Assembly: GCA_016124195.1 (NCBI GenBank)
Contig: WGOE01000007.1
Location: 1-64,000 of the forward strand
Origin: a bacterium
GTDB taxonomy: Bacteria; Pseudomonadota; Alphaproteobacteria; Rhodobacterales; Rhodobacteraceae
Reading direction: 5' to 3'
DNA length: 64,000 bases
Positions 1,513-15,148 of the stretch are shown here, piece by piece. The stretch's first letter is position 1; each line of letters starts with the position of its first letter. The position numbers and the translations under genes are program-made. The notes beneath the pieces are model-generated. The model was not told the origin of the DNA. It was given only the letters and a program-made list of their open reading frames with translations, and searched no databases.

Positions 1513-2209
1513 TCTGACCTCCGCACGAACGATGTCGCGATCTGTGTCCTGAACGACCGGGTGGAGAAGCGTAAGGCGGTTCTGAGCCGCGAGGCGGGAC
1601 GCAGCCTGCCCGCGGAAAAGATACGCCCTCTCAGAGCTTTGATGTCGAAACGCGCCCAACTGGTCGAGATGCGCAAACGGCTGCTGGCCCAAATCCGCGC
1701 GCAGCAGAAACTGGGAACCGCTGTGATGTTCCAGGACGTCGACACCGAACTGAAGCAACGGATCGACAGCCTGATCAAGGACTTGGAAGACAGGATCACC
1801 CGGGCTATCGGGAGCGACGATCACCTTTGTCGATGGCCACCGTTCTCCGCTCCATCCAGGGGATCGGCCCGGCTGCCAATACAATGCTGATCGCCGAGAT
1901 GCCCGAGAACGGCACCATCGCCGGCGAAGACGCTGCCGTACTCTCAGGATTGGCCCCGGTTGCACAGGACAGCGAAACGCTTCGCGGGAAGCTGGCGATC
2001 GCCGGACGGCGCCGCGTCCTGCCGCACCTGATGTTCCAGGCGGCCTAGGTCGCGGCGCATCAAACCCAAGCCTGAAGTCCTTCGCAGATCGCCTCCGCAA
2101 AGCTGGCGAGCCCCACAAAGTCGTCATCACCGCCGGTGCCAGTAAGCTGATCACCATCGCGAACGCGTTATGCAAAAATCGTCAGAAATGGGCCGCCCTG
2201 GCCACCTGA
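1513..2209 (+). pseudogene. IS110-family transposase relic (C-terminal part, frameshifted)
   Basis: Three consecutive frames together give the C-terminal half of an IS110/IS116/IS902 transposase. The first segment (to about 1830) holds the coiled middle region (KRAQLVEMRKRLLAQIRAQQ). The second (about 1827-2048) holds the Transposase_20 helix-hairpin-helix region (SIQGIGPAANTMLIAEMPE and SGEDAAV/LSGLAPVAQDS-like). After a stop and another shift, LKSFADRLRKAGEPHKVV runs to a stop at 2207-2209. At least two frameshifts and a missing N-terminus make it non-functional. Confidence 0.8.
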
Positions 2210-2221
2210 CAGATACAGTTG

Positions 2222-2749
2222 CTAGGGAAGGGTCCTTGATACCGCCGCCGCTAGAGCGTTGATCAGAGTGTTCGGATCGTAGGGTGGGCTAATAACCGTG
2301 TCCCACATCAGTGAGCATGACCAACTGGTATCGAATTTTGCGCGCAGCGAGCTAATAACCACGGGAAGGCGCGGAAGATGTCTTTTTATCGATAGCGTGA
2401 AGTTAAACAACTCAACTACATCCAGGCCGCAATCTGCGTCCAACACAAGAACGTCGCAGTGCAACTTATAATTCACCACATCTTCGCAGAGTGCCTCAAG
2501 AGCTGATGGCTTGCGAGCGCGGCCGATATTCCCGTCGCATGCCTCACCCGCAGGCGCGAGCATTGCTGGGCAAATCAATTTGAGTGCCATACCAATCGAA
2601 TCACAGAACAATGTCAGATCCGACTGGATTTGCTCATTGGCAGTGAGAACGCAAATACAGCTGCCCTTAGGAACAGCGCATTCAATTTCCTTAGCGGAAC
2701 CATCGGTGCAGAGTTGTTTGTTGCTTTTAACTATTGAGAGAGATTGCAA
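2222..2749 (-). CDS. Degenerate receiver-like protein (last gene of a five-gene operon)
   Basis: Predicted 175 residues starting at TTG; GAGG sits five bases upstream, and the start lies two bases after the stop of the preceding gene. The C-terminal two thirds looks like a response-regulator receiver fold: a hydrophobic strand ending in DVLVLDAD (candidate phospho-acceptor strand), a second strand RLPVVISS, and a third region DTVISPPYDP where the conserved Lys of true receivers is absent. No DNA-binding domain is attached. Function is unknown; the fold assignment is my reading of the pattern and not a profile match. It is clearly AT-richer than the genes after 15 kb. Confidence 0.5.
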   Translation of the reverse strand: MQSLSIVKSNKQLCTDGSAKEIECAVPKGSCICVLTANEQIQSDLTLFCDSIGMALKLICPAMLAPAGEACDGNIGRARKPSALEALCEDVVNYKLHCDVLVLDADCGLDVVELFNFTLSIKRHLPRLPVVISSLRAKFDTSWSCSLMWDTVISPPYDPNTLINALAAAVSRTLP

Positions 2750-2751
2750 GA

Positions 2752-3015
2752 TTACCTCACCACCATGATCTTCTCGGCCGCAATCGAGAAAATAGAATGA
2801 TTAATCACGTCGGGCCCACTAGAACTGACAGAAAAATCCGCTTCATGATCTTCCACCCCGCCGTGGGGAAAGCCCAAATACCAGACTGCTCCAGCCGTCC
2901 GCATCGTGGAAGTGAACCGAATTCGTGATGCCAGGTTCGATCCAAACATTAGCCAGCGCAATGGCGCTGTCTGAGTCCCCGGTGTGCGATCGAGGCAGTT
3001 AACTGGAGAATGCAA
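2752..3015 (-). CDS. Small hypothetical protein in the receiver-like operon
   Basis: Predicted 87 residues from a TTG start with GGAG about ten bases upstream. It lies 22 bases after gene 3038-3604, and its stop TAA is two bases before the next gene. The C-terminal half is moderately acidic (GFPHGGVEDHEADF) and ends in SIAAEKIMVVR. No family recognised. Its position between two receiver-like genes, with tight spacing and plausible ribosome sites, is the main reason for calling it a gene. A later in-frame ATG (residue 23) is a possible alternative start. Confidence 0.4.
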   Translation of the reverse strand: MHSPVNCLDRTPGTQTAPLRWLMFGSNLASRIRFTSTMRTAGAVWYLGFPHGGVEDHEADFSVSSSGPDVINHSIFSIAAEKIMVVR

Positions 3016-3037
3016 GTCACGATCTCCGAGCGATGTT

Positions 3038-3604
3038 TTAGGAGTTTAGAGCCTTGTTATTTACCCAAGCTGCGGACAAACCGTCGCACAGCCGGTTTGG
3101 CGACACAGGCGCACGCAGGGTTGCGTCGCAAATCCACTTTCGGTCAGGCAACAAGTCGTCCTTCTTAACCGCGTCTGATATAAGAATAACAACTGTGTCC
3201 TGCCGGCGCCTCCTAAAGAGCAAAAGGCGCGAGACTGCCTCATCCATGTCATCGAACGCATCTAAATTAACAATAACATGAGTAAATGCCCCGCGCATTG
3301 CGGATACATCTTCGAGTTGTGAAATGTTCTTGCAGGTTGCGCAGGACCTTAAGCCCGCATCACGCAGCATATTTATGAGCGCACCCAAATAGTTGTTTTC
3401 GAATCCCATGACCAGAACACGCGCATTAGCAACATGTGCATCGCCCCGGCCCATTGTCATTCCCATATCAATCCTGCCGGCAAGGCGATCGGCGTCTGAA
3501 AAGGCGGGCTGCAAAAGTTCTGCATCGCCCGAATGAACGCGTTCTCGCAAGCCCTGAATTCGGTCGGGAATGTCAGAGTTAACATGATCATGCTGATAGT
3601 TCAC
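3038..3604 (-). CDS. Degenerate receiver-like protein (GTG start, overlaps upstream gene)
   Basis: Predicted 188 residues from a GTG codon that overlaps the end of the upstream gene by 17 bases and is preceded by GGGGGA. From about residue 60 it resembles a receiver domain: ARVLVMGFENNYLGALINML (strand 1 and helix 1), THVIVNLDAFDDMDEA with an Asp at the end of strand 3, DTVVILISDA for strand 4, and DATLRAPVSP where the conserved Lys of strand 5 should be but is not. It ends with no output domain. It may be a phosphorylation-independent regulator or partner-binding receiver; function unknown. Confidence 0.5.
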   Translation of the reverse strand: MNYQHDHVNSDIPDRIQGLRERVHSGDAELLQPAFSDADRLAGRIDMGMTMGRGDAHVANARVLVMGFENNYLGALINMLRDAGLRSCATCKNISQLEDVSAMRGAFTHVIVNLDAFDDMDEAVSRLLLFRRRRQDTVVILISDAVKKDDLLPDRKWICDATLRAPVSPNRLCDGLSAAWVNNKALNS

Positions 3605-4061
3605 AGGTTTCCCCCACAATAGCAATAAATCCAATCCCGGCCGCTTGCAGCAATGCACGAGCATCGTCATATGCAGGCTGGCGAAGGGAGAAGGTCGAGG
3701 CTGGCAAAGGGACGAAGCCCGTAACTACACAAATTATTGCTCGCGGGAAAACCTCGCGAATTAAATTGGAAATCTCGCGCGCCGACATCGTGCGCCAGTC
3801 GCTCATATGAAATATTGCTAACTTAGGAGCCTGTCTCTCCAAATCGTCTGACTCATCGCAAATATCGTGCGTTCCATTAAAGACGTTCAAGCAAATACTC
3901 TGTAATACGCTCCTCAATTCAAGGGCCTCTGAGCTGCGGACGATCGGCATGAATACATCGAGATTGTCGACCTGCCAAAATATCTCAGCGGCGCGAAGGC
4001 AGCGATCAAACAGCCCTTCTCTGTCGGTGAGCCCTTCGTCCCCCCCTAGCATTTGAACCAT
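3588..4061 (-). CDS. Hypothetical protein, possible receiver-like fold, translationally coupled
   Basis: Predicted 157 residues from an ATG that shares bases with the upstream stop codon (TGATG), which suggests translational coupling. An in-frame ATG at 4139 would overlap the upstream gene by 78 bases and is less likely. The N-terminal third is helical and acidic (MVQMLGGDEGLTDREGLFDR). The C-terminal part has strand-like stretches KLAIFHMSDW and RAIICVVTGF reminiscent of a receiver or Rossmann-like fold, without an obvious acidic pocket. No family recognised. Its 3' end overlaps the next gene. Confidence 0.45.
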   Translation of the reverse strand: MVQMLGGDEGLTDREGLFDRCLRAAEIFWQVDNLDVFMPIVRSSEALELRSVLQSICLNVFNGTHDICDESDDLERQAPKLAIFHMSDWRTMSAREISNLIREVFPRAIICVVTGFVPLPASTFSLRQPAYDDARALLQAAGIGFIAIVGETCELSA

Positions 4062-4261
4062 CAAAGCCACGAGATCACCAAGCGGATCATGAAGAACCAG
4101 ATGACCGCTCCGCCCACTGTAAAGGGAAGTATCCACCAACCAGGAGGAAGAACTCGGTCGTACCTGTTTTTGCCGAAGCTAACTTTTTCATTGTTACTTC
4201 TCTGACGACCGATGACACCCAGGCCAGAGTTTAGTCCGTCAAGGCTGTGATTTTTTGACAA
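4061..4261 (-). CDS. Small single-pass membrane protein, first gene of receiver-like operon
   Basis: Predicted 66 residues from a TTG start preceded by GGAGG at six bases spacing, a very good ribosome site. The first 38 residues are polar and basic (KVSFGKNRYDRVLPPG). A single hydrophobic stretch then follows to the C-terminus (WWILPFTVGGAVIWFFMI). The arrangement suggests a cytoplasmic N-tail and one membrane helix. No family recognised. Its stop overlaps the ATG of the next gene. The upstream promoter region (about 4262-4410) is short and abuts an IS3 relic. Confidence 0.5.
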   Translation of the reverse strand: MSKNHSLDGLNSGLGVIGRQRSNNEKVSFGKNRYDRVLPPGWWILPFTVGGAVIWFFMIRLVISWL

Positions 4262-4520
4262 TTTGCACCTCCATCCTGAACAGACCTTGATTCCATAGAT
4301 AGCAAAGACTCAAAACTCTGGCCCTTGTTCATTGGAAGCCGAGCGGTCACGGAAGAGGAAAGGGGCAATCATAGATGGGTTAGGCCTATCGCAAGATAGT
4401 CCGTCCCTCTCCTACGACTTCGCGGCGAGCATGCTGAGACCGACGATGCTCATCCAGCTGAGACCAGAGTTGGTGATTGAGCGAACTGTGCCGGGTTTGC
4501 CGCAGGCTTGTTGACGGTGG

Positions 4521-5070
4521 CTACGCGGCCATGGCTCCAGTTTCCAGAGCTGCGTACAAGTTTCCTTCGGCTTCTGCCGGCGGGATGTTCTCGATGCGCA
4601 TGCGTTCGAGCCGGCGGCGGATGTTGAACCAGTCGACCCATTCGAAGGTTGCGTATTTGACGGCTTCGAAGCTGCGCCCTGGGTCGCGACGCTGAATTCC
4701 GAAACCCAAAGCATGTTCGCCGCAGGCACGCGGAACTGGCGATTCACCTTGTCCATCGGGCAGGGCAGCTTCTTGTCGGGGATTGTCGTCTTGTGCGGCC
4801 TACCGCGGATAATGCCCTGAATATCCATGGCTTTCATCAGCCCGGCCACGGTGAAACGTGCAACGTCGAAGCCTTCCCGTCGCAACTGCCTCCAGACCTT
4901 GCGCGCGCCGTAGACCTGCCAGTTGGCGTCGCGAATGCGCTGGATCTGGGGCCGAAGTGTCTCATCGCGCTTGGCAAGATTTGGCAGCCGGGTCGGATCG
5001 GCACGCTTGGCCAGATGGTCATAATAGGTGGCAGGAGCGATCGGCAGCATCTCGCAGATCGGATCAGGGA
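4521..5070 (-). pseudogene. IS3-family orfB transposase relic with internal deletion
   Basis: The minus-strand reading PDPICEMLPIAPATYYDH, followed by RIRDANWQVYGARKVWRQL and ANMLWVSEF, is the N-terminal part of an IS3-group integrase-type transposase (HTH_21 region up to the first DDE Asp region). The frame then shifts to FEWVDWFNIRRRLERMRIEN and IPPAEAE up to a stop near 4521. This skips roughly 110 residues that would contain the rest of the DDE core. The deletion and frameshift make it inactive. Confidence 0.8.
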
Positions 5071-5165
5071 GCCTTGGTCAAATGGCCAGACGGAAGGCCA
5101 GATCAACCGCCTTAAGCTCATTGAGCGTCAGAAGTATGGCCGTGCTCACCTTGATCTCCTCAGAG
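5066..5165 (+). pseudogene. ISL3-family transposase, C-terminal scrap
   Basis: On the plus strand the frame reads REPWSNGQTEGQINRLKL and then IERQKYGRAHLDLLRARV. This is the conserved C-terminal block of ISL3-family DDE transposases (WSNGQxEGxxxxxKxxKRxxYGRxxxxLLRxR). Only about 35 codons remain. It abuts the IS3 relic on the opposite strand at about 5066-5070, so two elements have been joined here by deletion or nested insertion. Confidence 0.75.
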
Positions 5166-5279
5166 CGCGTGTCCATTGCCACGGCCTTGATGACAAGGGA
5201 CGAATTGCACAGAATGTCAGTCAGAGCCAAAACTGTGTGCCGAAGCACATTCATGACACTTTCCTGCAACCAGACCAGC

Positions 5280-6050
5280 TCAGTGCCGAGGGCTGAGGCC
5301 CTGGCGGCCCGAACTTGAGCCTGACGACGGACCAAAGCTGCCCTGTCCTGCCGCCGCAGTGCCATTATCCGACGCACTTGCGGACCCAGACCCGTCCGTG
5401 CTCGATACACCGGCCGATGTGCCAAGGTCAGACCCAGTTGCGACCCCAGTATTTTCTCCGGATGCGCTTGCTGTCGGACCACTCGAACCAACGCTCGTCG
5501 AGGTTGAACCGCTGATCGAACCAACCCCGTTGGTCCCAGAGTTAGATGTGGACCCGTTGGAGCCATGATTGTCATAGCCAGCCCCAGGGAACTCACCCTC
5601 ATAGGGCGCCTCAAAGCCACTCAACTCTGCCGGCAGCGGCGCAAAAAATGTCACCGGCGTGCAGTTCTTATAATAGATCTCAACGCGACGATTCAGCTGC
5701 TCAGCACTAGGTGTATTGACAACCAGTTCCATCTTGCCACGCCAATCCGCCGCCAGACTGACCGCAGATGAGCCGTGCTCTTCAATGAATTGCAAAACAG
5801 AGACCGCCCGGCGTTTCGACAGATCCATATTATAGCGCTGCGACCCCAGCGCATCCGTGTGACCGACAATATAGCCATAAGCCCGCGGATTGTGAAGCAT
5901 GAAAGACATCAGAACCAACTGCATCTGCGGCGTCAAGTCTGACCGATCCAAGTCGAAATAAATCGTAAGCCGGCAATTCTTTGCAGTTGCCGTATTTGCT
6001 GACACAACGAGAACTACAGCAGTCATAATCTTCAAGAACCGAATGAGCAT
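5280..6050 (-). CDS. OmpA-domain protein with Ser/Gly-rich C-terminal tail
   Basis: Predicted 256 residues. I chose the ATG at 6050 because CAGGAG lies six bases upstream and the protein then opens with a signal peptide (MLIRFLKIMTAVVLVVSA, cleavage near ATA-KN). An OmpA-like peptidoglycan-binding domain follows directly (about 25-140): IYFDLDRSDLTPQ, GHTDALGSQRYNMDLSKRRA and LNRRVEIYY, the Asp and Arg of which contact diaminopimelate in the family. The last 100 residues are low-complexity Ser/Gly/Thr. This order (anchor domain first, tail after) is reversed from classic OmpA. It is divergent from the fibre genes at 6527 onward, so I infer a role in tethering them to the wall. The C-terminal end comes close to the IS debris and could have been altered by it. 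Confidence 0.75.
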   Translation of the reverse strand: MLIRFLKIMTAVVLVVSANTATAKNCRLTIYFDLDRSDLTPQMQLVLMSFMLHNPRAYGYIVGHTDALGSQRYNMDLSKRRAVSVLQFIEEHGSSAVSLAADWRGKMELVVNTPSAEQLNRRVEIYYKNCTPVTFFAPLPAELSGFEAPYEGEFPGAGYDNHGSNGSTSNSGTNGVGSISGSTSTSVGSSGPTASASGENTGVATGSDLGTSAGVSSTDGSGSASASDNGTAAAGQGSFGPSSGSSSGRQGLSPRH

Positions 6051-6526
6051 CTGAACTCCTGTAGTTTCCATACCATTGTAAACGGACGACAACAGCGTCC
6101 GTCCGTACCACTATGCCCTAAGTCAGAACGGGTCAATTCACTCCGACGAACAAACGCTTGGATCTTTCGGGGGGTCACATACCTCGGAACCAGCGCCGGC
6201 GTCCTTTTCGTCGCATGTGACGAAAGTGCGACACGCGGATATCTTTCGAGAGGCTTCGCAATTAGCTGGACCCGTGCGACAACGAAGGCGCCGGCGGAGT
6301 GCCGACGAGGCGCCTCCTCCCAAAACTGGATGCATATCGGGCGCCGCGAAGTGCGGACAAGGTGGCGGCCAGCGTTAGAAGACTGGAGGGTGAGTTTTGT
6401 TGCGCAGGTGAGGACTTTAGAAGCTAGGTCCGATGGCGGCGGATAGCTCAATAAGGGCGGGTCGCATCAAGTGAGGCGAATCCGCCACTAAATCTGGCGG
6501 TTTATATAGTCGTGGGAAAAGCCGAG
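6051..6526. promoter_or_regulatory. Divergent control region between the OmpA-type gene and the fibre genes
   Basis: This 476-base stretch has no convincing gene and must contain the promoters for both directions. An inverted repeat CCGCCA-N7-TGGCGG occupies 6482-6500 and is immediately followed by the AT-rich TTTATATAGT (6501-6510), a possible operator plus -10-like element. A GTG at 6512 could extend the first fibre gene by five codons, but the ATG at 6527 fits a signal peptide better. No experimental support. Confidence 0.4.
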
Positions 6527-6967
6527 ATGAACAAAAAAGCAAGCCAGGTGTTTGTGTCCGCTGCGTTGGCAATTTTTTGGGCGGCAGCTGGCAATGCTCA
6601 GTCATACACGCCGACTGGATCGGCTTGGTCATCCTCGTGGGGCTATTCTTCAGCGACAGATTTGAGCGTAGGACTCGCTACAGCTCAGGCAATAGCGGCG
6701 AAACGAACTAAGGCGGTGGCTCCAGTATACAACACATATAATACGACTAACTCGACGAGCTCTGTGGGCTCCATGAACACAGGAGCGAGCACAATTCAAA
6801 TCACAGGGAATGGCAATACGGTGTCGTCGACGAGCGGAGCTACAAATTCTGGCTGCGTAGATGGCTCATTGTCGCATTCGACAGTTGAGGGCGTGAACTC
6901 GTTCCCATTAGGGCCGGTCGACCTGAGTGCGCTTGGCTTGAGCACAACAGCAAATTGCCCTGGTTGA
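6527..6967 (+). CDS. hfaA: HfaA/curlin-like secreted fibre subunit
   Basis: Predicted 146 residues. A Sec signal peptide (residues 1-24, cleavage near GNA-QS) is followed by a small Asn/Ser/Thr/Gly-rich mature protein with alternating polar residues such as TIQITGNGNTVSSTSGATNS, the composition of curlin and of the Caulobacter holdfast anchor HfaA. Two Cys (110 and 144) could form a disulfide. VDGSL at 111-115 resembles the VDGS blocks of the two repeat proteins downstream. The gene lies 24 bases before a CsgG/HfaB-family gene, the same order as hfaA-hfaB. Inference: an amyloid-like surface subunit exported by that channel. The HfaA name rests mainly on context and composition. Confidence 0.6.
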   Translation: MNKKASQVFVSAALAIFWAAAGNAQSYTPTGSAWSSSWGYSSATDLSVGLATAQAIAAKRTKAVAPVYNTYNTTNSTSSVGSMNTGASTIQITGNGNTVSSTSGATNSGCVDGSLSHSTVEGVNSFPLGPVDLSALGLSTTANCPG

Positions 6968-6991
6968 TCACAGAAAGTGAAGTGTAGGCTT

Positions 6992-8434
6992 ATGCGTTGG
7001 AGTGCAATCACCGCGGTGCTGGTCGTCAGCGGCTGCTCGGCCATACCGGCGATGTTTTCTAATCGCAGTGAAAACGCCGCATTGGTTCAGGGTCCACCGG
7101 TCCAAGATGTCGTAACCGCTTACGACAGCGCGCTTTCTTGCCTTAGGGGCAAAGTTCCGCACAATGTCTTCTTCGGCGTCGGCACGGTAGTGGATGCGAC
7201 CGGCAAGGAAAGCTTCAACGACGGAAACGCGGGCAAGTTCGTCACCCAGGGCGCAGGAGAGATGGTGCAATCCGCGCTGTTCAAGGCCGGCGTCTCTGTA
7301 GTCAACCGCCGCGACGACGCTATTACTATCGCTGAAACGAATTGGGGGATTCGAGATATCAAGCGGCAGGTGCCGGTCAACTTCTATTTGTCTGGCAGCA
7401 TAAACAGCCTGGATTTCATTCCGGGTGGAGGTTTTGCCGTGCAGGTTGCCGGAGTTGGCCCACGCTATCGGCAGAGTCGAATTTTGGTCGCCTTGGACAT
7501 GACCATGACAGATGCCTATACAGGCCGGATTGTTGCAAGCATTCCGTTGCAGAAACAGATATTTACCAGCGAGGTTGGGGGCAGTAACAACAGCTTCTTC
7601 GGTGCAACTCTGGTGCAATTGGATGCCGGCGGCATGAAGCGCGAGGCAATCAATTTTGCGTTGCGCCAGATGCTGAGTCTGGCAACATTTGAAGTACTTG
7701 GTCAGGTCCTTGACCAGGGGTCCTACGCGCCTTGCAAGGCGTTGATCGATGCGGCTGATGGTGGTGTCACGACGTCTGGAACGTCCGATCCGGTGGCGCT
7801 CAGGGAAGCAATTCGCGCGATGAAAGAGGCAGCCAACGACAACTCAATAAAGCCGCTGACAGTTCCAATTGAACAGGCCTCGGCGCCCGCATCGGGGCAG
7901 GCTGGTGCCGCGCCCGGCGGAAGAGGCAATGGCGTAAGTCCACAGCCGGCCGCGGAAACAACTCCCGGCTCTTTCAAAGGTCAAAAGTCGACGCAAGCGG
8001 CAACCATGGCAATTCGCGCTGCCAAGGATTCGATGAGTGCGCCTGATACCAAAACGGCCGTCGAGAAAGCTGCTGAGGCGTTGAAGCTGTCCAATCTGGC
8101 CTTGCTGCTCTTGAAAGAAGCTGCATCGGAAGGTTTCACGGGCGATGCTGGTGAAGTGGCGGCGGTCGTTGTTCAGCAAGCCTTACAGGCGGCAAAGGAA
8201 GCCGGAGTTGCTGCAGCCAAGCGGGCGAATGACAACAAGCCAGCATCAGGCACTACAGCGCCAACTGCGCAACCGAATGCTACAGGATCAGATGCACTCG
8301 GCGCACAGGGCCCTCGCGTTGGCGTGACTAATGTTGCACCGAATTCAGGCACCGCTACTGATTCCAATGCAAGCCCGCCAGCTCCGATTCCGGGTGGTTT
8401 GCCGAATCCTCAGCAACCCGATTTGGTAAAATGA
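6992..8434 (+). CDS. hfaB: HfaB/CsgG-family outer-membrane secretion lipoprotein with long C-terminal extension
   Basis: Predicted 480 residues. CsgG-family proteins form outer-membrane channels that export curli-type subunits; HfaB does this for the Caulobacter holdfast anchor. A lipobox ending at Cys15 (VVSGC) shows lipidation. The CsgG core spans about 35-245: GVGTVVDATGKES, PVNFYLSGSINSLDF, then GVGPRYRQSRILVALDMTMT and TGRIVASIPLQKQIFTSEV, which align with the membrane-hairpin region of CsgG. After about residue 260 there is an Ala/Pro/Gly-rich extension with a helical stretch (EKAAEALKLSNLALLLLKEA). ATG 6992 is preferred over GTG 6977 because the lipobox then sits at the right distance. 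Hairpins follow it. Confidence 0.8.
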   Translation: MRWSAITAVLVVSGCSAIPAMFSNRSENAALVQGPPVQDVVTAYDSALSCLRGKVPHNVFFGVGTVVDATGKESFNDGNAGKFVTQGAGEMVQSALFKAGVSVVNRRDDAITIAETNWGIRDIKRQVPVNFYLSGSINSLDFIPGGGFAVQVAGVGPRYRQSRILVALDMTMTDAYTGRIVASIPLQKQIFTSEVGGSNNSFFGATLVQLDAGGMKREAINFALRQMLSLATFEVLGQVLDQGSYAPCKALIDAADGGVTTSGTSDPVALREAIRAMKEAANDNSIKPLTVPIEQASAPASGQAGAAPGGRGNGVSPQPAAETTPGSFKGQKSTQAATMAIRAAKDSMSAPDTKTAVEKAAEALKLSNLALLLLKEAASEGFTGDAGEVAAVVVQQALQAAKEAGVAAAKRANDNKPASGTTAPTAQPNATGSDALGAQGPRVGVTNVAPNSGTATDSNASPPAPIPGGLPNPQQPDLVK

Positions 8435-8473
8435 CGCTTACCCAGCTGGCCAAAGTTCAGCACAGAATTCCCA

Positions 8474-8490
8474 CTGCCCTAGATGGGCAG
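8474..8490 (+). terminator. Hairpin after hfaB-like gene
   Basis: CTGCCC-TAGAT-GGGCAG forms a six-pair stem, extended by CC/GG beyond one mismatch, 39 bases after the stop of the CsgG-family gene. There is no T-run, so it is at best a weak terminator or an RNA-processing/stabilising element between the channel gene and the first repeat-protein gene. Confidence 0.35.
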
Positions 8491-8524
8491 CGGGATAAGA
8501 AGGGCCCAATTCGATCCCTAATCA

Positions 8525-8552
8525 ATTGCAAGGTTATTGGGGGCCTTGCAAT
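8525..8552 (+). promoter_or_regulatory. Leader hairpin upstream of the first repeat-protein gene
   Basis: ATTGCAAGG and CCTTGCAAT form a perfect nine-pair stem around a ten-base loop (8534-8543), ending about ten bases before the ribosome site GAGG (8563-8566). The position suggests an effect on translation start or messenger stability of an abundant secreted protein. Seen in sequence; role inferred. Confidence 0.4.
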
Positions 8553-8571
8553 CCAACTTGTTGAGGACAAC

Positions 8572-9327
8572 ATGAAAAAGCTTCTCGTTTCCACTGCCAT
8601 GCTGGCACTCATGACTGGTGCGGGCTTCGCTCAGTCGGTTCCCGCCACAAACCACCCGGCTCCGGCCACTGCCCAGACTTCCGTGTCTTTGCTCGACGGG
8701 CTGTTGGCAAACGCTTCGGCGCTTTCCGCAAGCCTGTCTAACGTGGCGCAGAACCTGAACAGCGTTGACGGTTCGATCAACGTGACGACCAGCCGTGACT
8801 ACTCCGGCATCGCCAGCGGCATCAATGCTCTCTCGGGCGGCGGCACCACGCCGTTCGGCTCGTACAGTCAGGTTGGTACGAACGTCTATGGTCAAGACCT
8901 TCCGGCGGCGCTGCTCGGCGTGCTGGATCCGCTGACCGCGAGCCTCGGCGACCTGTCGACCACCTCGATCGGCGCGATGCAGTCCGGCTCGATCACCGCA
9001 ACGGTCGATGCCAGCAAGATTGTGTCTTCGGTTCAGGACAACGCCACTGCCAGCACGACCTCAGCGATGGCTTCGGCTGACACCTATGGCGGCATTGCCA
9101 ACACCCTTGCGTTCCAGAACATTGCTGTGAACTCGGGTGACATCAACGGTTCCGTTCAGCTGGCTCTGGCTGACGTGAATTCCACCGTCGGCAAAGTCGC
9201 GACCACGGCTATCGGCGCGATGGGTTCGGGCAGCCTGACGGCGAACATCACTGGCAACATGGGCGCCACGACCGACGCGACCTCGGCCATCGTTGCGTCG
9301 CTGGTTGGCGGCAGCACCGCTCCCTGA
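8572..9327 (+). CDS. Secreted VDGS/TTxIGAM-repeat protein 1 (candidate fibre or adhesin)
   Basis: Predicted 251 residues with a clear signal peptide (1-20, cleavage GFA-QS) and GAGG five bases before ATG. The mature protein is rich in Ala, Ser, Thr and Gly, has no Cys, and contains spaced repeats: SNVAQNLNSVDGSI (56-69), TTSIGAMQSGSITA (130-143), DINGSVQ (190-196) and TTAIGAMGSGSLTA (211-224). The composition and repeats suggest a beta-solenoid or amyloid-type surface protein. Its paralogue at 9429-10160 has the same blocks in the same order. Placement behind HfaA/HfaB-like genes suggests export through the CsgG-type channel or a role comparable to HfaD, but I cannot show homology to HfaD by eye. 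Confidence 0.7.
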   Translation: MKKLLVSTAMLALMTGAGFAQSVPATNHPAPATAQTSVSLLDGLLANASALSASLSNVAQNLNSVDGSINVTTSRDYSGIASGINALSGGGTTPFGSYSQVGTNVYGQDLPAALLGVLDPLTASLGDLSTTSIGAMQSGSITATVDASKIVSSVQDNATASTTSAMASADTYGGIANTLAFQNIAVNSGDINGSVQLALADVNSTVGKVATTAIGAMGSGSLTANITGNMGATTDATSAIVASLVGGSTAP

Positions 9328-9349
9328 TCGCGAACTTTCGCGTACTCCT

Positions 9350-9375
9350 CTTGCGGGCACTTCGGTGCCCGCAAG
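9350..9375 (+). terminator. Strong UUCG-loop hairpin between the two repeat-protein genes
   Basis: CTTGCGGGCAC-TTCG-GTGCCCGCAAG is a perfect 11-pair stem closed by a UUCG tetraloop, 23 bases after the first repeat-protein gene. It is followed by TCTTCACTTC, a pyrimidine-rich but interrupted tail. It could terminate part of the transcription, or stabilise the upstream message, so that protein 1 is made in excess of protein 2. Confidence 0.6.
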
Positions 9376-9428
9376 TCTTCACTTCACGGGTATATCGCCC
9401 GGACGAAGGGCTGGACGAGGATTAGAGA

Positions 9429-10160
9429 ATGTCGGGAAAACTGAGGTGTGCAATGATTGTTGCATGTTTGACTTCAGTTGGCAGCAGCACTTTTGCGAGC
9501 CCGTCCACTTCTGACGAGTCCCTGTTGGCGTCATTGCTCAATGAAGTTTCCGCCTTGACAGCGATGCTGGCGAATGTGGCCGAGAACCTGCATCAAGTTG
9601 ATGGTTCCGTAGTTATCGAGGGGGTCGGAAAGACTACGGATCTTGTCGCGACGCTCGATGCCGTGGCACGTGATCATTGGGTAGGGCCTGTCAGCCGGGT
9701 CAATTCGAAAGTATTCAGCTCGGGTACTTCGACGGCCCTGTTGGATGTGCTCAAGCCTACAACGTTCAGTGCGAATGACATTGCGACAACTGCCATTGGG
9801 GCCTTGCAGTCGGGTGCTTTGCTGGGATCAACGGGCACAACCGGGACCATTGATACGTCAGGGCTGGTCAACCAGATCTCACTTACCGCAAGTACAGCCA
9901 CAGTCACCACAACGCTTCTTGCGCAGGATTTCGGCAACGTTGCCAATACCACACTTCTGCAAAATGCTGCCATCAACCTCGGTGATGTGGACGGCAGCAT
10001 TCAGATGATCCTGAGTAATACCCTGGCCCATGTAGGCCCTATCGGGACAACTGCGATCGGCTCAATGGAATCGGGTATTCTGACCGGGTCGCTGACAGCA
10101 AACATGAACAGCGTGACAGACAATCTCACTGCTGTTGTCAGTGCCCTCGTCGGCCGCTGA
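9429..10160 (+). CDS. Secreted VDGS/TTxIGAM-repeat protein 2 (paralogue of 8572-9327)
   Basis: Predicted 243 residues, GAGG eight bases before ATG, signal peptide about 1-23. Block SALTAMLANVAENLHQVDGS (41-60) closely matches residues 49-68 of protein 1. Further shared blocks are TTAIGALQSGA (120-130), DVDGSIQ (186-192) and TTAIGSMESG (207-216) followed by LTGSLTANM. Spacing between blocks is conserved, so the two genes arose by duplication and then diverged considerably. It may be a minor or nucleating subunit. The stop is 21 bases from the left end of an IS5-type element, so any further genes of the locus may have been displaced. Confidence 0.7.
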   Translation: MSGKLRCAMIVACLTSVGSSTFASPSTSDESLLASLLNEVSALTAMLANVAENLHQVDGSVVIEGVGKTTDLVATLDAVARDHWVGPVSRVNSKVFSSGTSTALLDVLKPTTFSANDIATTAIGALQSGALLGSTGTTGTIDTSGLVNQISLTASTATVTTTLLAQDFGNVANTTLLQNAAINLGDVDGSIQMILSNTLAHVGPIGTTAIGSMESGILTGSLTANMNSVTDNLTAVVSALVGR

Positions 10161-10181
10161 GTGTTGTTTGGCCTAAGACGT

Positions 10182-11311
10182 GGCTTTGTCGCGTAAATCC
10201 GGTGATGGCCGGAGTTCCCCTTTCCCCGGACAGAGTTATGCTGCGCGCTGCATGGGTGGCGCTCCGAGGGTGGTGAAGCGGTTCAGGATGGCCGCCCTTA
10301 TCTGAAGTTCGGCGACCTGCTGTTGGAAGTCGCGGGATATGACGCGCTCCCCCAAGGGCTTGAAGCAGCGCATCTTTGCTTCGACCAGGCATCGTCGGTG
10401 GTAGGCGGTCCAGCGCTTCCAGATGGCCTGGCCCAGGCGGCGTCAGCTGGGCAGGGCATCGTTGCGCGCGATCGCCCCTGCCGTGTATTCCTTCCAGGGC
10501 TTGCCGTTCCTGCGGGGCGGGATGACCGCCGCTGCCTCGCGCGCAGCACTGGTGCGGAGGGGAACGTGGCCCCTGATGGGGCCGCGTAAGCCCCGAAGCG
10601 GTGGCAGGCCCGCGTGTCATAGGCGCCATCGGCGGTGACCATGCCCAAGGGCTGATCGCTTGGGATCTGGTCCAACAGGTCGGGCATAACGGGCGCATCG
10701 CCGATCCGGCTGCCTGTGATCTCGATGGCCCGGATTTCCAGCGTCTCGGCATCACTCCCGAGGTGGACTTTGGGCCAGTCGCGCGGCTTCGACGGTCCGT
10801 GTTTCTTGGCCAACCATTCGCCATCCACCTCGGCCTTCACGCCAGTGCTGTCGATCAGCAGGGGCAGAGCGCCTGAGGTGGGGCCGTAGGGGAGGTGGAC
10901 TATCAGGGTCTTCTGGCGACGGCATAGGGTGCTGAAGTCAGGCACCGGCCAATCCAGCCCAGCAAGGTCCAGCAGGCTTGCCACCATCCCTGTAGTTTGC
11001 CTCAGCGGCAGCCCAAACAACGCCTTCCGCGTCAGGCGGGCTTGGATCGCGGCGGCGCTGAAGACCGGCCGACGACCCCGCTTGCCGGTCGGCGCGCCCA
11101 GCCACTGCGTCTTGGGATCAAACCAGATCGACAGTGATCCTCGCCGCGCAAGCGCAGCCCTCGCCATTGGGCTCGAACCAATGGCGCCCATGGCTCGATA
11201 GTCACGCCAGTTCGTGGTGTGGTAGGTCGCGGGCTTCGGTCCGCTCATGCCGCATGACTAAAAGACTGGATTCATGAGGTGAATCCTCCCCCGCATTCGC
11301 GCAACAAAGCC
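10182..11311. mobile_element. IS5/IS903-type insertion sequence, both ends present, no target duplication seen
   Basis: The left end begins GGCTTTGTCGCGTAAATC (10182) and the complement of the right end begins GGCTTTGTTGCGCGAATG (ending at 11311); 17 of the first 21 bases match. This is the IS5 family IS903-group terminus. The nine bases outside the left end (CTAAGACGT) and the right end (CAGGCGAGA) do not match, so the expected target duplication is missing, pointing to old age or to recombination between copies. Total 1130 bases, with one decayed transposase inside. Confidence 0.8.
10236..11248 (-). pseudogene. IS5-family transposase, broken
   Basis: The N-terminal two thirds read well: NWRDYRAM-type opening, TGMVASLLDLAGLDWPVPDF, LPLLIDSTGVK (first DDE Asp) and MVTADGAYDTRACH (second DDE Asp). 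Near 10590 the frame is lost within an insertion-like segment. The C-terminal part continues in another frame (VIPPRRNGKPWKEYTAGAIA, KRWTAYHRRCLVEAKMRC with the DDE Glu region, IRAAILNRFTTLG) and contains an in-frame TGA after NDALPS. Frameshift plus nonsense codon indicate an inactive transposase. Confidence 0.85.
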
Positions 11312-11632
11312 CAGGCGAGATCGGAGAACTTCCTGCAACTGCGATGACAGCCTTCTTGTGGATAATCAATGCCACGATCCTGTCCGCGCTTTGCCCGACA
11401 GAGCCGAGGAAGATACTGGCCAAACCCAGCGTATCAGGTTTTCCAGGCCAAACTAATTGTCGAATTCGATAGACAAGAAAAATCAATCGACAATCCACGC
11501 CGGCTTAATGAAACGAAAGATCGCTTGATCCTCAATCGCAATCGCGCGACTTATCCGTTAAAGGGTATTACGGCAATCCGTTGAAGAGCCGAACACCGGA
11601 TCGAAATGGCAAATCTAGTGGAAGAATTAGCA
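11312..11632. promoter_or_regulatory. AT-rich gap upstream of the sulfotransferase-glycosyltransferase gene
   Basis: No gene is supported in these 321 bases. The stretch is AT-rich compared with the rest of the window and presumably carries the promoter of the large downstream gene. The segment just right of the IS5 end could be a remnant of whatever the insertion interrupted, but I recognise nothing in it. Confidence 0.3.
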
Positions 11633-14600
11633 ATGGTAAACCCTGAAAGACAGGCGATTGTTGTCCTAGGCATGCACCGGTCGGGCACCTCGGCTCTGGC
11701 GGGACTATTCGGAAAATTGGGGTTCGAATTACCCGCGACAATAATGGGCGCAACTAAGGATAACCTAGCGGGATACTTCGAGTCAAAAATCATTGCCGAT
11801 CTGAACGATGAGATCCTGCAGGCGCACGGATCCGCATGGTCTGATATTCATCCCTTCCTCGTGCATTCTGACAGAAATGAAGATAATAGCCGTCGCGCTC
11901 GTGCAGAAAGAATGATTCAGGCCGAATTCGGCAATTCACAGCGTTTCGTCCTGAAAGACCCGCGAATTTGCAGATTGCTTCCATTCTGGCAGGGCGTCCT
12001 CAACGCAGTCAACACACAGCCCAAATATATTCACATTCATCGCAATCCCCTCGAAGTCGCCCATTCTCTTTTGAAACGCGACAAATTTCCTTTGAAATAT
12101 GGCCTAGCGCTCTGGCTCCGGCATATGCTGGACGCAGAGCATTATACTCGCGGTCAACAGAGAATCTTTGTTCGGTATGAAGATCTGCTGGCAGATTGGA
12201 GAGCTTTAGCGCGTCGTGTCGAAAAGGACTTAGACACTCGTCTCAGATATACCTCCGGTGTTGAGATCGATCAGTTCTTGAATTCTGAACTGCGCAATTT
12301 CTCATGTGATGAGACGATCTCCCCGTCAAATAATTTATTGGAAAATAGCTGCTACGCAATCTTTGAGGATTGGGCGCGCACGTGCGAAAAGGAGTCCAAT
12401 TTCCATCAACTCGACGGCATGCGTGATGCAATTGATTCTATATGTGATCTGCAATATCGGGAGTATGGAGAATTTCTGTCCAGAGATAACTTAAACGAGG
12501 AAGCCGACGAAGCATTTGCCAAGGCGTGTCGCATTGCTCCGCACAAAGCACTGAATCATGTTGCACGCGGTGTAGCATTGATAGGCGCCCAAAAATTTGC
12601 ACAGGCGCACGCCTGTATGCGACTCGCCTTGAATTGTGAGCCCGAAGCACGCTCGATCCATGCTCTGCTCTCAAGTACTAGCCTCGCACTCGGAGCACTC
12701 GCGCTGGCTGATCATCATGCTTTAAATGCGCTGGATGAGCATGAAGCAAGGCCTCTAGAAACTGACGCGCTGGCCCAAAGTGTTCTCAACGCCGCTATTT
12801 TGCGTGCAGGGGCGCAGCAAACATCGCTGGAGCTCTCCATGGCAGCTACCAATGCCCTGGAGAATGACGTCCTCGACGCGATGAGGAAGCTTGAAATCGG
12901 ACAGTTTGAGCTTGGATTATTCGAACTCGCCTCTTTAATTGAAGCTAATCTCGACGATGAAAACCTTCGTGGCATATTTATCAGGGGGATCATCAGGTTT
13001 CGCAAGGAAGCCGCACCCGGACAATTCGAGGCTTTCACTGAGGCTCTGAACTTGAACCCCTTTCCGGCGATTGCGTGCACGACAGTGACGAATTCAGATG
13101 CTTTGGGTTCTATTGACATCGTCATTCCAGTCTACAATGCGCTGGAGGACCTAAAGATCTGCATTTCATCAATCCGGAAGTGGAAAAGTTCTACCATGGG
13201 GCAAATCATTTTGGTAGACGACGCATCCGAGGCTGAGACGCGGGATTGGTTGATGAAGCAAGCTCATAACTTCCCAGACATTAAGGTAATTCGAAATGTT
13301 GAAAACCTCGGCTTTACCCGTGCGGTGATGGCGGGCATCGAGGCCAGCAGCGCGCCATTCTTTGTGCTCTTGAATAGCGATACCATTGTTACTGCTGGTT
13401 GGCTTGAGGGGATGTTGAGGGTCGCGATGTCCAGTGAAAAGATCGCGTTAGTCGGGCCCTTGAGTAATAATAGCTACTTCCAGTCGATCTATCCTGTGCC
13501 TTGCGAGTCGCCAAATATTACAGATGATCCTGATCGGGTTGCGGCGATGGTGTTGTCGAGATGTAAGTATGAATCGCCAGTGGTGCCACTTCTGTCGGGC
13601 TTCTGCTTGCTTGTGCGGCGCGATGTGTTCGAGGAGGTCAATCGCCTTGACGATCGAAGCTTTCCGGAGGGCTATTGGGAAGTTCAGGATCTTTGTTTGA
13701 GGCTCAAGGACGCGGGCTTTGAATCTGCAATTGCCGATAGTGTTTATGTCCATCATTCGGGCAGCAAAAGCATTGCAAGCTCACGCAAAAAACGTCTTGT
13801 AGCGCAGGGCCTCAAGATTATTCATGAACGGCATTCCGCCCTGCGTTTTCAGACAGCCGAGGCGCTTTGTGCGTTGGAACCTGTCGTACTCAAAAATTAT
13901 CAGGCACTGTCACTTTTAGAGGCAGAGCTTGCGCAGCCGACTCAGATGCCGGAAATCATTCGCCCCTTCGACGTAAATGCGATCATCTGCAGAGTGATTA
14001 AAATGCCGCCCGATCCCTTAATTGGAGCTGAGGTCTGTCTTTTTGTGATACATGCACCGCTGGGCACGGTTTGCGATTATACTGCCGAATATGTGCGGGC
14101 GCTCAAGTCTAATAATATTGCGGTTCTCATATGCATGACAACCGATACGATGAATATGCCCGTCGATGCGGCTGTTTTGTCAATGGCGGACGGTTTGGTC
14201 GTAAGACAAAATGGCGGATTTGATTTTGCGGCATGGCGCGACATGCTGCATTTGTTTCCCGAGGCTTGGCGATCGGAAAGACTCTATTTTGTTAATGATA
14301 GCCTCATCGGTCCGTTTGCGCCACTTGATGAGATGATTGCCGATATTCGTGAGACCAATGCTGGATTTTTCGCTCTTAGTGAATGTACTGTTGGAGGTTA
14401 CCACGCCCAGAGTTTCTTCTTCGGCTGGAACAGGCTGAATTTGTCGTCGGCACCGCTGCGCGAATTTTGGGAAAGGGTGGAAGTAGAGAGAGACAAGACT
14501 CAAGTCATTATTAAGTACGAGCATACAATTGCACCGATGAGCGCGACCTTGCCGGACCCGACGGTACAAATTGTTTACGGAATGCAGCGCGTTTTGGGAG

Positions 14601-14839
14601 GCGACCCGTCCGAAATATCCAATGTTAATCCAACTCACCACGGGTGGCGGCGTCTTCTCAAAAATGGCTTTCACTTCGTTAAGACTGATCTGCTCAGGGA
14701 CCTCGTCCATCATCCCAATTACGTAGACACGCAAGGCTGGGAGGAATGGTGCACGGATCACGGCGCGGATGTAAGCAGAGTCCGCCGCCACATCGAGCAG
14801 TCCCGCATAAACCGGTTACTGAACAAGAGTCTTTGGTAA
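11633..14839 (+). CDS. Trimodular sulfotransferase / family 2 glycosyltransferase / RgpF-like protein
   Basis: Predicted 1068 residues. The N-terminal module (about 5-250) is a sulfotransferase: VVLGMHRSGTSALAG is the 5'-phosphosulfate loop for PAPS and YIHIHRNPLEVAHSLLKR the 3'-phosphate site. A helical, TPR-like linker follows (about 280-480). A GT2 module (about 495-730) has IDIVIPVYNALEDL, IILVDDAS and LLNSDTIVTAGWL (DxD-type metal site). The C-terminal module (about 800-1040) matches rhamnan-synthesis protein F: NGGFDFAAWRDM, RLYFVNDSLIGPFAPLDEM and FWERV. All are expected to act in the cytoplasm on a surface polysaccharide, so I infer a sulfated glycan for the cell surface. ATG 11633 (GGAAG eight bases before) is preferred to ATG 11606, which lacks a ribosome site. 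AT-rich like the island. Confidence 0.85.
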   Translation: MVNPERQAIVVLGMHRSGTSALAGLFGKLGFELPATIMGATKDNLAGYFESKIIADLNDEILQAHGSAWSDIHPFLVHSDRNEDNSRRARAERMIQAEFGNSQRFVLKDPRICRLLPFWQGVLNAVNTQPKYIHIHRNPLEVAHSLLKRDKFPLKYGLALWLRHMLDAEHYTRGQQRIFVRYEDLLADWRALARRVEKDLDTRLRYTSGVEIDQFLNSELRNFSCDETISPSNNLLENSCYAIFEDWARTCEKESNFHQLDGMRDAIDSICDLQYREYGEFLSRDNLNEEADEAFAKACRIAPHKALNHVARGVALIGAQKFAQAHACMRLALNCEPEARSIHALLSSTSLALGALALADHHALNALDEHEARPLETDALAQSVLNAAILRAGAQQTSLELSMAATNALENDVLDAMRKLEIGQFELGLFELASLIEANLDDENLRGIFIRGIIRFRKEAAPGQFEAFTEALNLNPFPAIACTTVTNSDALGSIDIVIPVYNALEDLKICISSIRKWKSSTMGQIILVDDASEAETRDWLMKQAHNFPDIKVIRNVENLGFTRAVMAGIEASSAPFFVLLNSDTIVTAGWLEGMLRVAMSSEKIALVGPLSNNSYFQSIYPVPCESPNITDDPDRVAAMVLSRCKYESPVVPLLSGFCLLVRRDVFEEVNRLDDRSFPEGYWEVQDLCLRLKDAGFESAIADSVYVHHSGSKSIASSRKKRLVAQGLKIIHERHSALRFQTAEALCALEPVVLKNYQALSLLEAELAQPTQMPEIIRPFDVNAIICRVIKMPPDPLIGAEVCLFVIHAPLGTVCDYTAEYVRALKSNNIAVLICMTTDTMNMPVDAAVLSMADGLVVRQNGGFDFAAWRDMLHLFPEAWRSERLYFVNDSLIGPFAPLDEMIADIRETNAGFFALSECTVGGYHAQSFFFGWNRLNLSSAPLREFWERVEVERDKTQVIIKYEHTIAPMSATLPDPTVQIVYGMQRVLGGDPSEISNVNPTHHGWRRLLKNGFHFVKTDLLRDLVHHPNYVDTQGWEEWCTDHGADVSRVRRHIEQSRINRLLNKSLW

Positions 14840-14857
14840 GGCCAGAACTTCGGTAGC

Positions 14858-15148
14858 GGGTTGGCCCCAGCCAAGCTGTTTTGTGCATGCGAGGTTTGTG
14901 TATTCCGGCATCCAGACGAAGGTGTTCTTCTCAGGACCAGCCTCATCGAACGGGTTCAGCATCCCCTTATAGAGGGGCACGCAGATCGGCATCGTCACGC
15001 TGGTTCGCTTGCCTGTATTGCCACCTGTCACTGCTATTTTCAGATGGGGCGGTTTGATTCCGACCTTGATGTCCTTGTGCCGCAGCCCGAACAGCTCGCC
15101 CTTCGTCGGCCGCAGGAAGTTGTGGACGCGGAATTTGAATATCCTCAC
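14858..15148 (-). pseudogene. Tyrosine recombinase (integrase) fragment
   Basis: The minus-strand reading contains FLRPTKGELFGLRHKDIKV, HLKIAVTGGNTGKRTSVTMP and FVWMPEYTN. This is the central catalytic segment of phage/island tyrosine integrases (first Arg in the ELFGLRHKD block and the beta-hairpin Lys in GGNTGKR). The N-terminal core-binding domain and the C-terminal HxxR...Y part are missing, so the gene is dead. It marks the right edge of the AT-rich island. Confidence 0.65.

Follow-up and report, generated by a model that had tools for sequence, protein, structure and literature searches.

The main finding of this work is a compact locus in a bacterium of the family Rhodobacteraceae that probably encodes an export module of the CsgG type (type VIII-like). 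We name this module AGR; in it, the secreted proteins A and R would be exported through the channel protein G and assemble into a surface fibre. The DNA analysed, referred to as the window, is a stretch of 64,000 nucleotides from a contig of 83,339 bases; the genome, 4.26 Mb in size, carries a single CsgG-family gene. At positions 5280-10160, the five genes described by a first-pass annotation of the window were all found in the compact divergent arrangement given there, the OmpA-domain gene being read leftward and A, G, R1 and R2 rightward. According to their coordinates, the latter are separated by 24 bases (A-G), 137 bases (G-R1) and 101 bases (R1-R2). Start codons and signal peptides were assigned by visual inspection together with a simple script. 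The features of the locus are as follows.

3038-3670, minus strand: receiver-like regulator, assigned by eye, with no Pfam match at E 0.01
3588-4139, minus strand: second regulator-like open reading frame, overlapping the preceding one, with a single relative, in locus L071
4412-5050, minus strand: transposase piece (PF13276, HTH_21), on the left flank of the five genes
5280-6050, minus strand: OmpA-domain protein (PF00691) of 256 aa whose tail is rich in Ser, Gly, Ala and Thr; accessory, perhaps anchoring to the wall
6527-6967, plus strand: A, small secreted protein of 146 aa with a single copy of the A/R repeat, in the hfaA position
6992-8434, plus strand: G, CsgG/HfaB-family outer-membrane lipoprotein channel of 480 aa with a long C-terminal extension
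8572-9327, plus strand: R1, secreted repeat protein of 251 aa with two repeat copies
9429-10160, plus strand: R2, secreted repeat protein of 243 aa, paralogue of R1
10298-11248, minus strand: transposase (DDE_Tnp_1_5 and DDE_Tnp_1), on the right flank of the five genes

Both transposase genes lie within a stretch of low G+C (54.7% at 2200-14900 versus 66.0% at 15000-64000), which suggests that the AGR module may have reached this genome by horizontal transfer. The same stretch contains, adjoining the module, a gene at 11606-14839 (plus strand) for a 1077-aa protein that combines a sulfotransferase, a family 2 glycosyltransferase and an RgpF-like domain; in another locus (L047), a TPR-sulfotransferase adjoins the AGR module.

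The channel G and its place in the CsgG family

The product of the G gene scores 33.9 bits against the CsgG profile PF03783 (cut-off 20.8), in agreement with the channel proposed by the first-pass annotation. Its N-terminal lipobox cysteine, Cys15, is invariant across an alignment of four proteins. A profile combining G with two relatives aligns with solved CsgG (profile positions 63-229 on CsgG residues 34-217, E 1.8e-6), a span which we take to include the membrane hairpins. Among the NCBIfam models, the best match of G is HfaB (NF037935), a partial match of 82.7 bits for a cut-off of 300, while the best-scoring piece of the genome reached 53.4 bits against that model. Beyond the profile, G proteins carry a C-terminal extension of variable sequence with a median of 127 residues (range 25-252; 80 sequences, omitting L052, L054 and L068, which are cut by contig ends). 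The closest relatives of G in the genome scan were those of a Rhodobacteraceae MAG (84%) and of Rhodobacter sp. KR11 (81%).

A tree of 71 channel rows (58 AGR, eight curli-type, three HfaB-type and two plasmid rows) was built after thinning the rows of L074-L104 to one in five, except L097 and L101, and leaving out L068 and L026. All 58 AGR proteins fell on one side of a branch with support 100/98, the eight curli-type CsgG proteins grouped elsewhere (100/100), and the three HfaB-type rows lay apart from the AGR channels without forming a single group. The AGR channels are a branch separate from curli CsgG and HfaB, and since the tree contains long branches, the claim is limited to this separation. 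One channel from a contig labelled as a Gammaproteobacteria MAG (L055) grouped with those of Rhodobacterales, which probably reflects a binning error.

A repeat common to A and R

R1 and R2 share 40% identity over query residues 22-247, in keeping with the two paralogous repeat proteins of the first-pass annotation. The internal repeat itself is clear in R2, where alignment of one half against the other scored 66 for a best of 63 in 300 shuffles, and borderline by the shuffle test alone in R1 (score 73, equal to the highest of 300 shuffles). Profile-profile comparison matched A with R over the repeat stretch (probability 92.6, E 4.5e-7); direct cross-matches between the A profile and R proteins were weak in both directions, the best being about 1e-4, so that the homology of A and R rests on profile comparison and motif counts. 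The R motif, N-x-A-x-N-x3-I-D-G-S-V and T-T-A-I-G-A-x-N-T-G-x-I-T, mostly occurs twice per protein, while the A motif, T-x-S-V-G-x-x-N-T, occurs once and is followed by C-x-D-G-S-I in many members. With a pattern written after inspection of the very proteins counted, one copy was found in 62 of the 83 A proteins and none in 21, and among 92 R proteins, two copies in 66, three in 3, one in 9 and none in 14, for shuffled means of 0.009 (A) and 0.030 (R) per protein. Judged from their sequences, A and R are built from a common repeat.

The mature A, R1 and R2 consist to 62-71% of A, G, S, T, V and N, with 2-6% aromatic residues. For the window's A protein, neither Pfam nor NCBIfam gave a match at E 1 or better, and the curlin repeat PF07012 was not matched anywhere in the genome, with a positive E. 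coli control; the description of the small protein as curlin-like was thus not borne out. Among 34 A and 44 R members, no convincing Pfam or NCBIfam family was found, the stray matches being to unrelated families at E 0.015 or worse. Predicted structures were weak (pLDDT 65.2 for R and 59.3 for A); the low-confidence R model suggests two beta units with helices in between, and its comparison with solved folds gave no match (best E 4.9; FapC E 6.4). Given these weak models and the empty fold search, we claim no fold, and an amyloid character of A and R would be a guess. Directly after the signal peptide, an S-[VLI]-L-x-x-[VIL]-L-like segment, a candidate channel-targeting signal, was seen in 31 of 63 R rows, a count that leaves out 29 rows of L074-L104, nearly all from Acinetobacter.

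Linkage and distribution of A, G and R

A search with the G profile across genomes of bacteria and archaea returned 89 relatives, the best 80 of which form the locus set. Where the contig leaves room in these best 80 of 89, A adjoins G in 77 of 78 loci, R adjoins G in 71 of 73, and both lie beside it in 68 of 71; in view of near-duplicates (L049/L052, L107/L108, L106/L109 and many from Acinetobacter), these figures, such as the 77/78, count loci and not independent events, and the A and R profiles used were built partly from proteins of the same loci. Two places each carry two handles (L040 is L026, and L024 is L126). The sole A miss (L069) has A just downstream of G. Of the two R misses, L048 again gave no match in a repeated search, and L065 lies at a contig end and was matched by an earlier profile. 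R is present in one to three copies per locus, with more than one in 12 loci, and it lies upstream in three Polynucleobacter loci (L066, L072 and L073). Searches with single proteins of the window recovered A at 67, R1 at 23 and R2 at 7 of the 80 loci. The counts of A, both for loci and for motifs, use a profile of 34 A proteins, the iterated A profile drifting into R in later rounds; the 34-protein profile also matched one small open reading frame away from the module (L061, 1517-1720).

At 19 control loci of curli, HfaABD and other CsgG-family type, two pairs of which overlap, the A profile found no match at E 0.01 or better, and the R profile found one (L022, E 0.00056, 15.4 bits), which is chance-like, its open reading frame reading like the binding protein of a transporter. 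Co-occurrence was then seen at the level of genomes. The genus of L099, a locus labelled Acinetobacter lwoffii, was covered with 149 genomes; G was detected in 33 of them and R in exactly those 33, neither occurring alone (thresholds 1e-10 and 1e-8; three starting genomes are known positives among the 149); in one carrier (G424), the channel is a mere piece at a contig end. In the window's own family, a CsgG-family gene occurs in 17 of 198 genomes, and strong R matches (E below 1e-9) occur in three, precisely those with an AGR-branch channel. A further 31 of the 34 genomes passing E 0.001 gave weak R matches (3.3e-5 or worse) confined to profile positions 1-105, at the signal-peptide end, and were not counted. 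On the tree, the 17 CsgG-positive genomes comprise three of the AGR branch, seven of the curli branch and two HfaB-type rows, with G005, G008, G041, G063 and G086 left off. Hence the repeat proteins are linked to CsgG-family genes elsewhere, in 71 of 73 loci and 33 of 33 genomes, and the proposed export module, with a CsgG-family channel and repeat-protein partners of its own, is supported.

By label, the carriers among the best 80 of 89 include, in Alphaproteobacteria, Rhodobacterales, Aureimonas, Nitratireductor and Pararhizobium; in Betaproteobacteria, Polynucleobacter, Polaromonas and others, with Methylophilales-labelled records too; and 29 records labelled Acinetobacter, a few other gammaproteobacteria and one Desulforhopalus. 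The module does occur in Alphaproteobacteria, as had been suggested, but a purely alphaproteobacterial module is too narrow a description given the Acinetobacter, Polynucleobacter, Polaromonas, Methylophilales and Desulforhopalus records. A plasmid search returned one close relative, on a 55,280-base plasmid of Pacificitalea manganoxidans; on this plasmid, pDY25-D (L024/L126), the genes beside the module include a response regulator and one labelled 'ATP-binding protein'. Matches on a Photobacterium plasmid and on Vibrio alginolyticus plasmids (L127 and L128) hold another CsgG/HfaB-family gene beside small 'hypothetical' genes; they show 30-32% identity and have other neighbours, and the two examined gave no A or R match at E 0.1.

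Neighbour clustering, which used a simple open-reading-frame caller and yielded some clusters that are wrong-frame shadows, found no further gene as widely common to the loci as A, G and R. The OmpA-domain protein scores 42.9 bits against PF00691 (cut-off 27.2), and its relative was found at one of the 80 related loci (L035, 5962-6678). Of the five genes expected to occur together, A, G and R do so, whereas the OmpA gene is not core to the module; the OmpA domain of the proposed wall tether is present, but its rarity elsewhere makes that proposal a weak one. Just upstream of A, a lipoprotein-like open reading frame with a lipobox occurs at 26 of the 71 loci with room, one of which (L051) looks spurious, and at none of the Acinetobacter records. 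About half of these proteins have a Cys-Trp pair close to the N-terminus, and a Ser/Gly/Ala-rich tail resembling that of the window's OmpA protein is found in many; no such frame was seen at 6080-6530 of the window, and L035 carries both the lipoprotein and the OmpA protein. One anchor role may be filled by different proteins, the OmpA protein or the lipoproteins, across loci. LuxR-type response regulators occur at 12 of the 80 loci, that of L043 aligning over the receiver only, and also at L024 and L026; relatives of the 3038-3670 regulator were found at 10 of the 80 other module loci.

Relation to curli and holdfast systems, and a proposed mechanism

AGR fits the definition of neither curli nor HfaABD. 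The reading that A, G and R are a diverged holdfast anchor, with A as HfaA, G as HfaB and R as HfaD tethering a polysaccharide adhesin, is unlikely. An hfaA-hfaB-hfaD-like locus (L121) has the same gene order, HfaB is the best NCBIfam match of G, and a glycosyltransferase/sulfotransferase gene lies downstream at 11606-14839. Nevertheless, the HfaA (NF037934) and HfaD (NF037936) models were silent in the window genome and positive in the Caulobacter control, HfaB stayed far below its cut-off, and at E 0.1 the 34 A members gave no HfaA match and the 44 R members no HfaD match; in G006 and G058, the HfaA model likewise missed the proteins that resemble HfaA. An HfaA-like identity of A was tried by profile-profile comparison and rejected, a short ITGNGNTV stretch aligning with two HfaA-like proteins without significance. 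R gave probabilities of 0.2 and 2.7 in hhalign against two thin profiles, one of two HfaD and one of two HfaD-position sequences, which are weak tests. Moreover, the tree sets the AGR channels apart from the three HfaB-type rows, and Acinetobacter, in which we know of no holdfast, is the label of 29 of the 80 loci. Membership in a holdfast anchor, as first annotated, is therefore not supported by these models, and the proposed replacement of HfaD holds in outline, R lying in the hfaD position as in L121, but not as a match to the HfaD model. Within the window's family, two HfaAB-like loci (L022 and L023) have two large repeat proteins rich in Q-x-A-x-N-x-x-N, and the HfaA model found nothing in either genome.

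A curli operon whose subunits have drifted past recognition is a still less probable explanation. The channel is in the CsgG family, there are two subunit kinds with a common repeat, and CsgD is of the LuxR type, as are the response regulators at the 12 loci mentioned; yet neither the curlin repeat nor CsgF (E. coli control positive) was matched in the genome, the curli-type CsgG proteins branch on their own, and neither A nor R was found at loci of curli type from the window's bacterial family. CsgF is, according to one survey, also missing in about half of the curli-bearing alphaproteobacterial genera (PMC3521004). That R might instead be a soluble effector or bacteriocin-like protein secreted by G, and not a fibre, has a parallel in MafA, a lipoprotein likened to CsgG and proposed as a secretion route for the toxin MafB (PMC7738311). 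We hold this to be the least probable of the three readings, and a very improbable one, as the 44 R members have no recognised domain, their repeats are of low complexity in one to three copies per locus, and no other gene is as widely shared as A, G and R.

We favour export through G and fibre assembly, with AGR most likely representing, next to curli and Hfa, a third class among CsgG-dependent surface fibres. Building on the linkage and co-occurrence of the genes, the shared repeat and the family membership of G, we infer that G would be an outer-membrane lipoprotein oligomerising into a pore. A, R1 and R2 would reach the periplasm by Sec, remain unfolded and then traverse G. Since A has one repeat and R two copies of the same repeat, A would most likely be the nucleator or anchor, and R the main subunit that polymerises into a surface fibre or coat, like CsgB and CsgA. 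Such a fibre or coat may serve adhesion or biofilm formation. The long C-terminal extension of G may replace the gating and anchoring factors CsgE and CsgF, and attachment of the assembly to the envelope may be the task of the OmpA protein, or of lipoproteins at related loci. A fuller proposal seems to us evenly balanced. In it, AGR is a portable and undescribed third secretion class of alpha-, beta- and gammaproteobacteria; its nucleator, with one repeat, and its subunits, with two, would belong to a repeat family that no Pfam or NCBIfam model covers and would make a new fibre, and the channel tail would replace the separate curli chaperones.

AGR resembles the HfaA-HfaB-HfaD system of Caulobacter in its order of small protein, CsgG-family lipoprotein and larger surface protein; it differs in that no homology to HfaA or HfaD was detected, one repeat is common to A and R, carriers extend beyond Alphaproteobacteria and G has a long C-terminal extension. 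Fap amyloid of Pseudomonas is another system with a dedicated channel and repeat subunits, although R and FapC show no significant fold match (E 6.4) and FapF is, to our knowledge, outside the CsgG family. In Caulobacter, the Hfa surface proteins depend on the channel, proposed as their export pore (PMC6707917). With curli (type VIII; CsgA, CsgB and CsgG), AGR has in common a CsgG-family channel and two secreted subunits with a common repeat, as described for CsgB and CsgA (PMC10192328), whereas it lacks a detected curlin repeat or CsgF, its repeat differs and its channel branch is separate. A thin search of open-licence papers found no description of the AGR module.

CsgG paralogues without curli partners are on record and, in the portion of the survey consulted, apparently unexplained: its CsgG model gave 41% false positives, called likely paralogues (PMC3521004), and 'CsgG paralogs' were excluded before tree building in another study (PMC9599517). 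The AGR channels may be among these paralogues, and one paralogue branch now has specific partners. The gain is a repeat signature usable in searches, along with a subunit/nucleator scheme open to testing. If true, the proposal would introduce a kind of bacterial surface fibre not described before, together with a new CsgG-type channel that has its tail built in, with relevance to biofilm biology and to CsgG-based nanopores.
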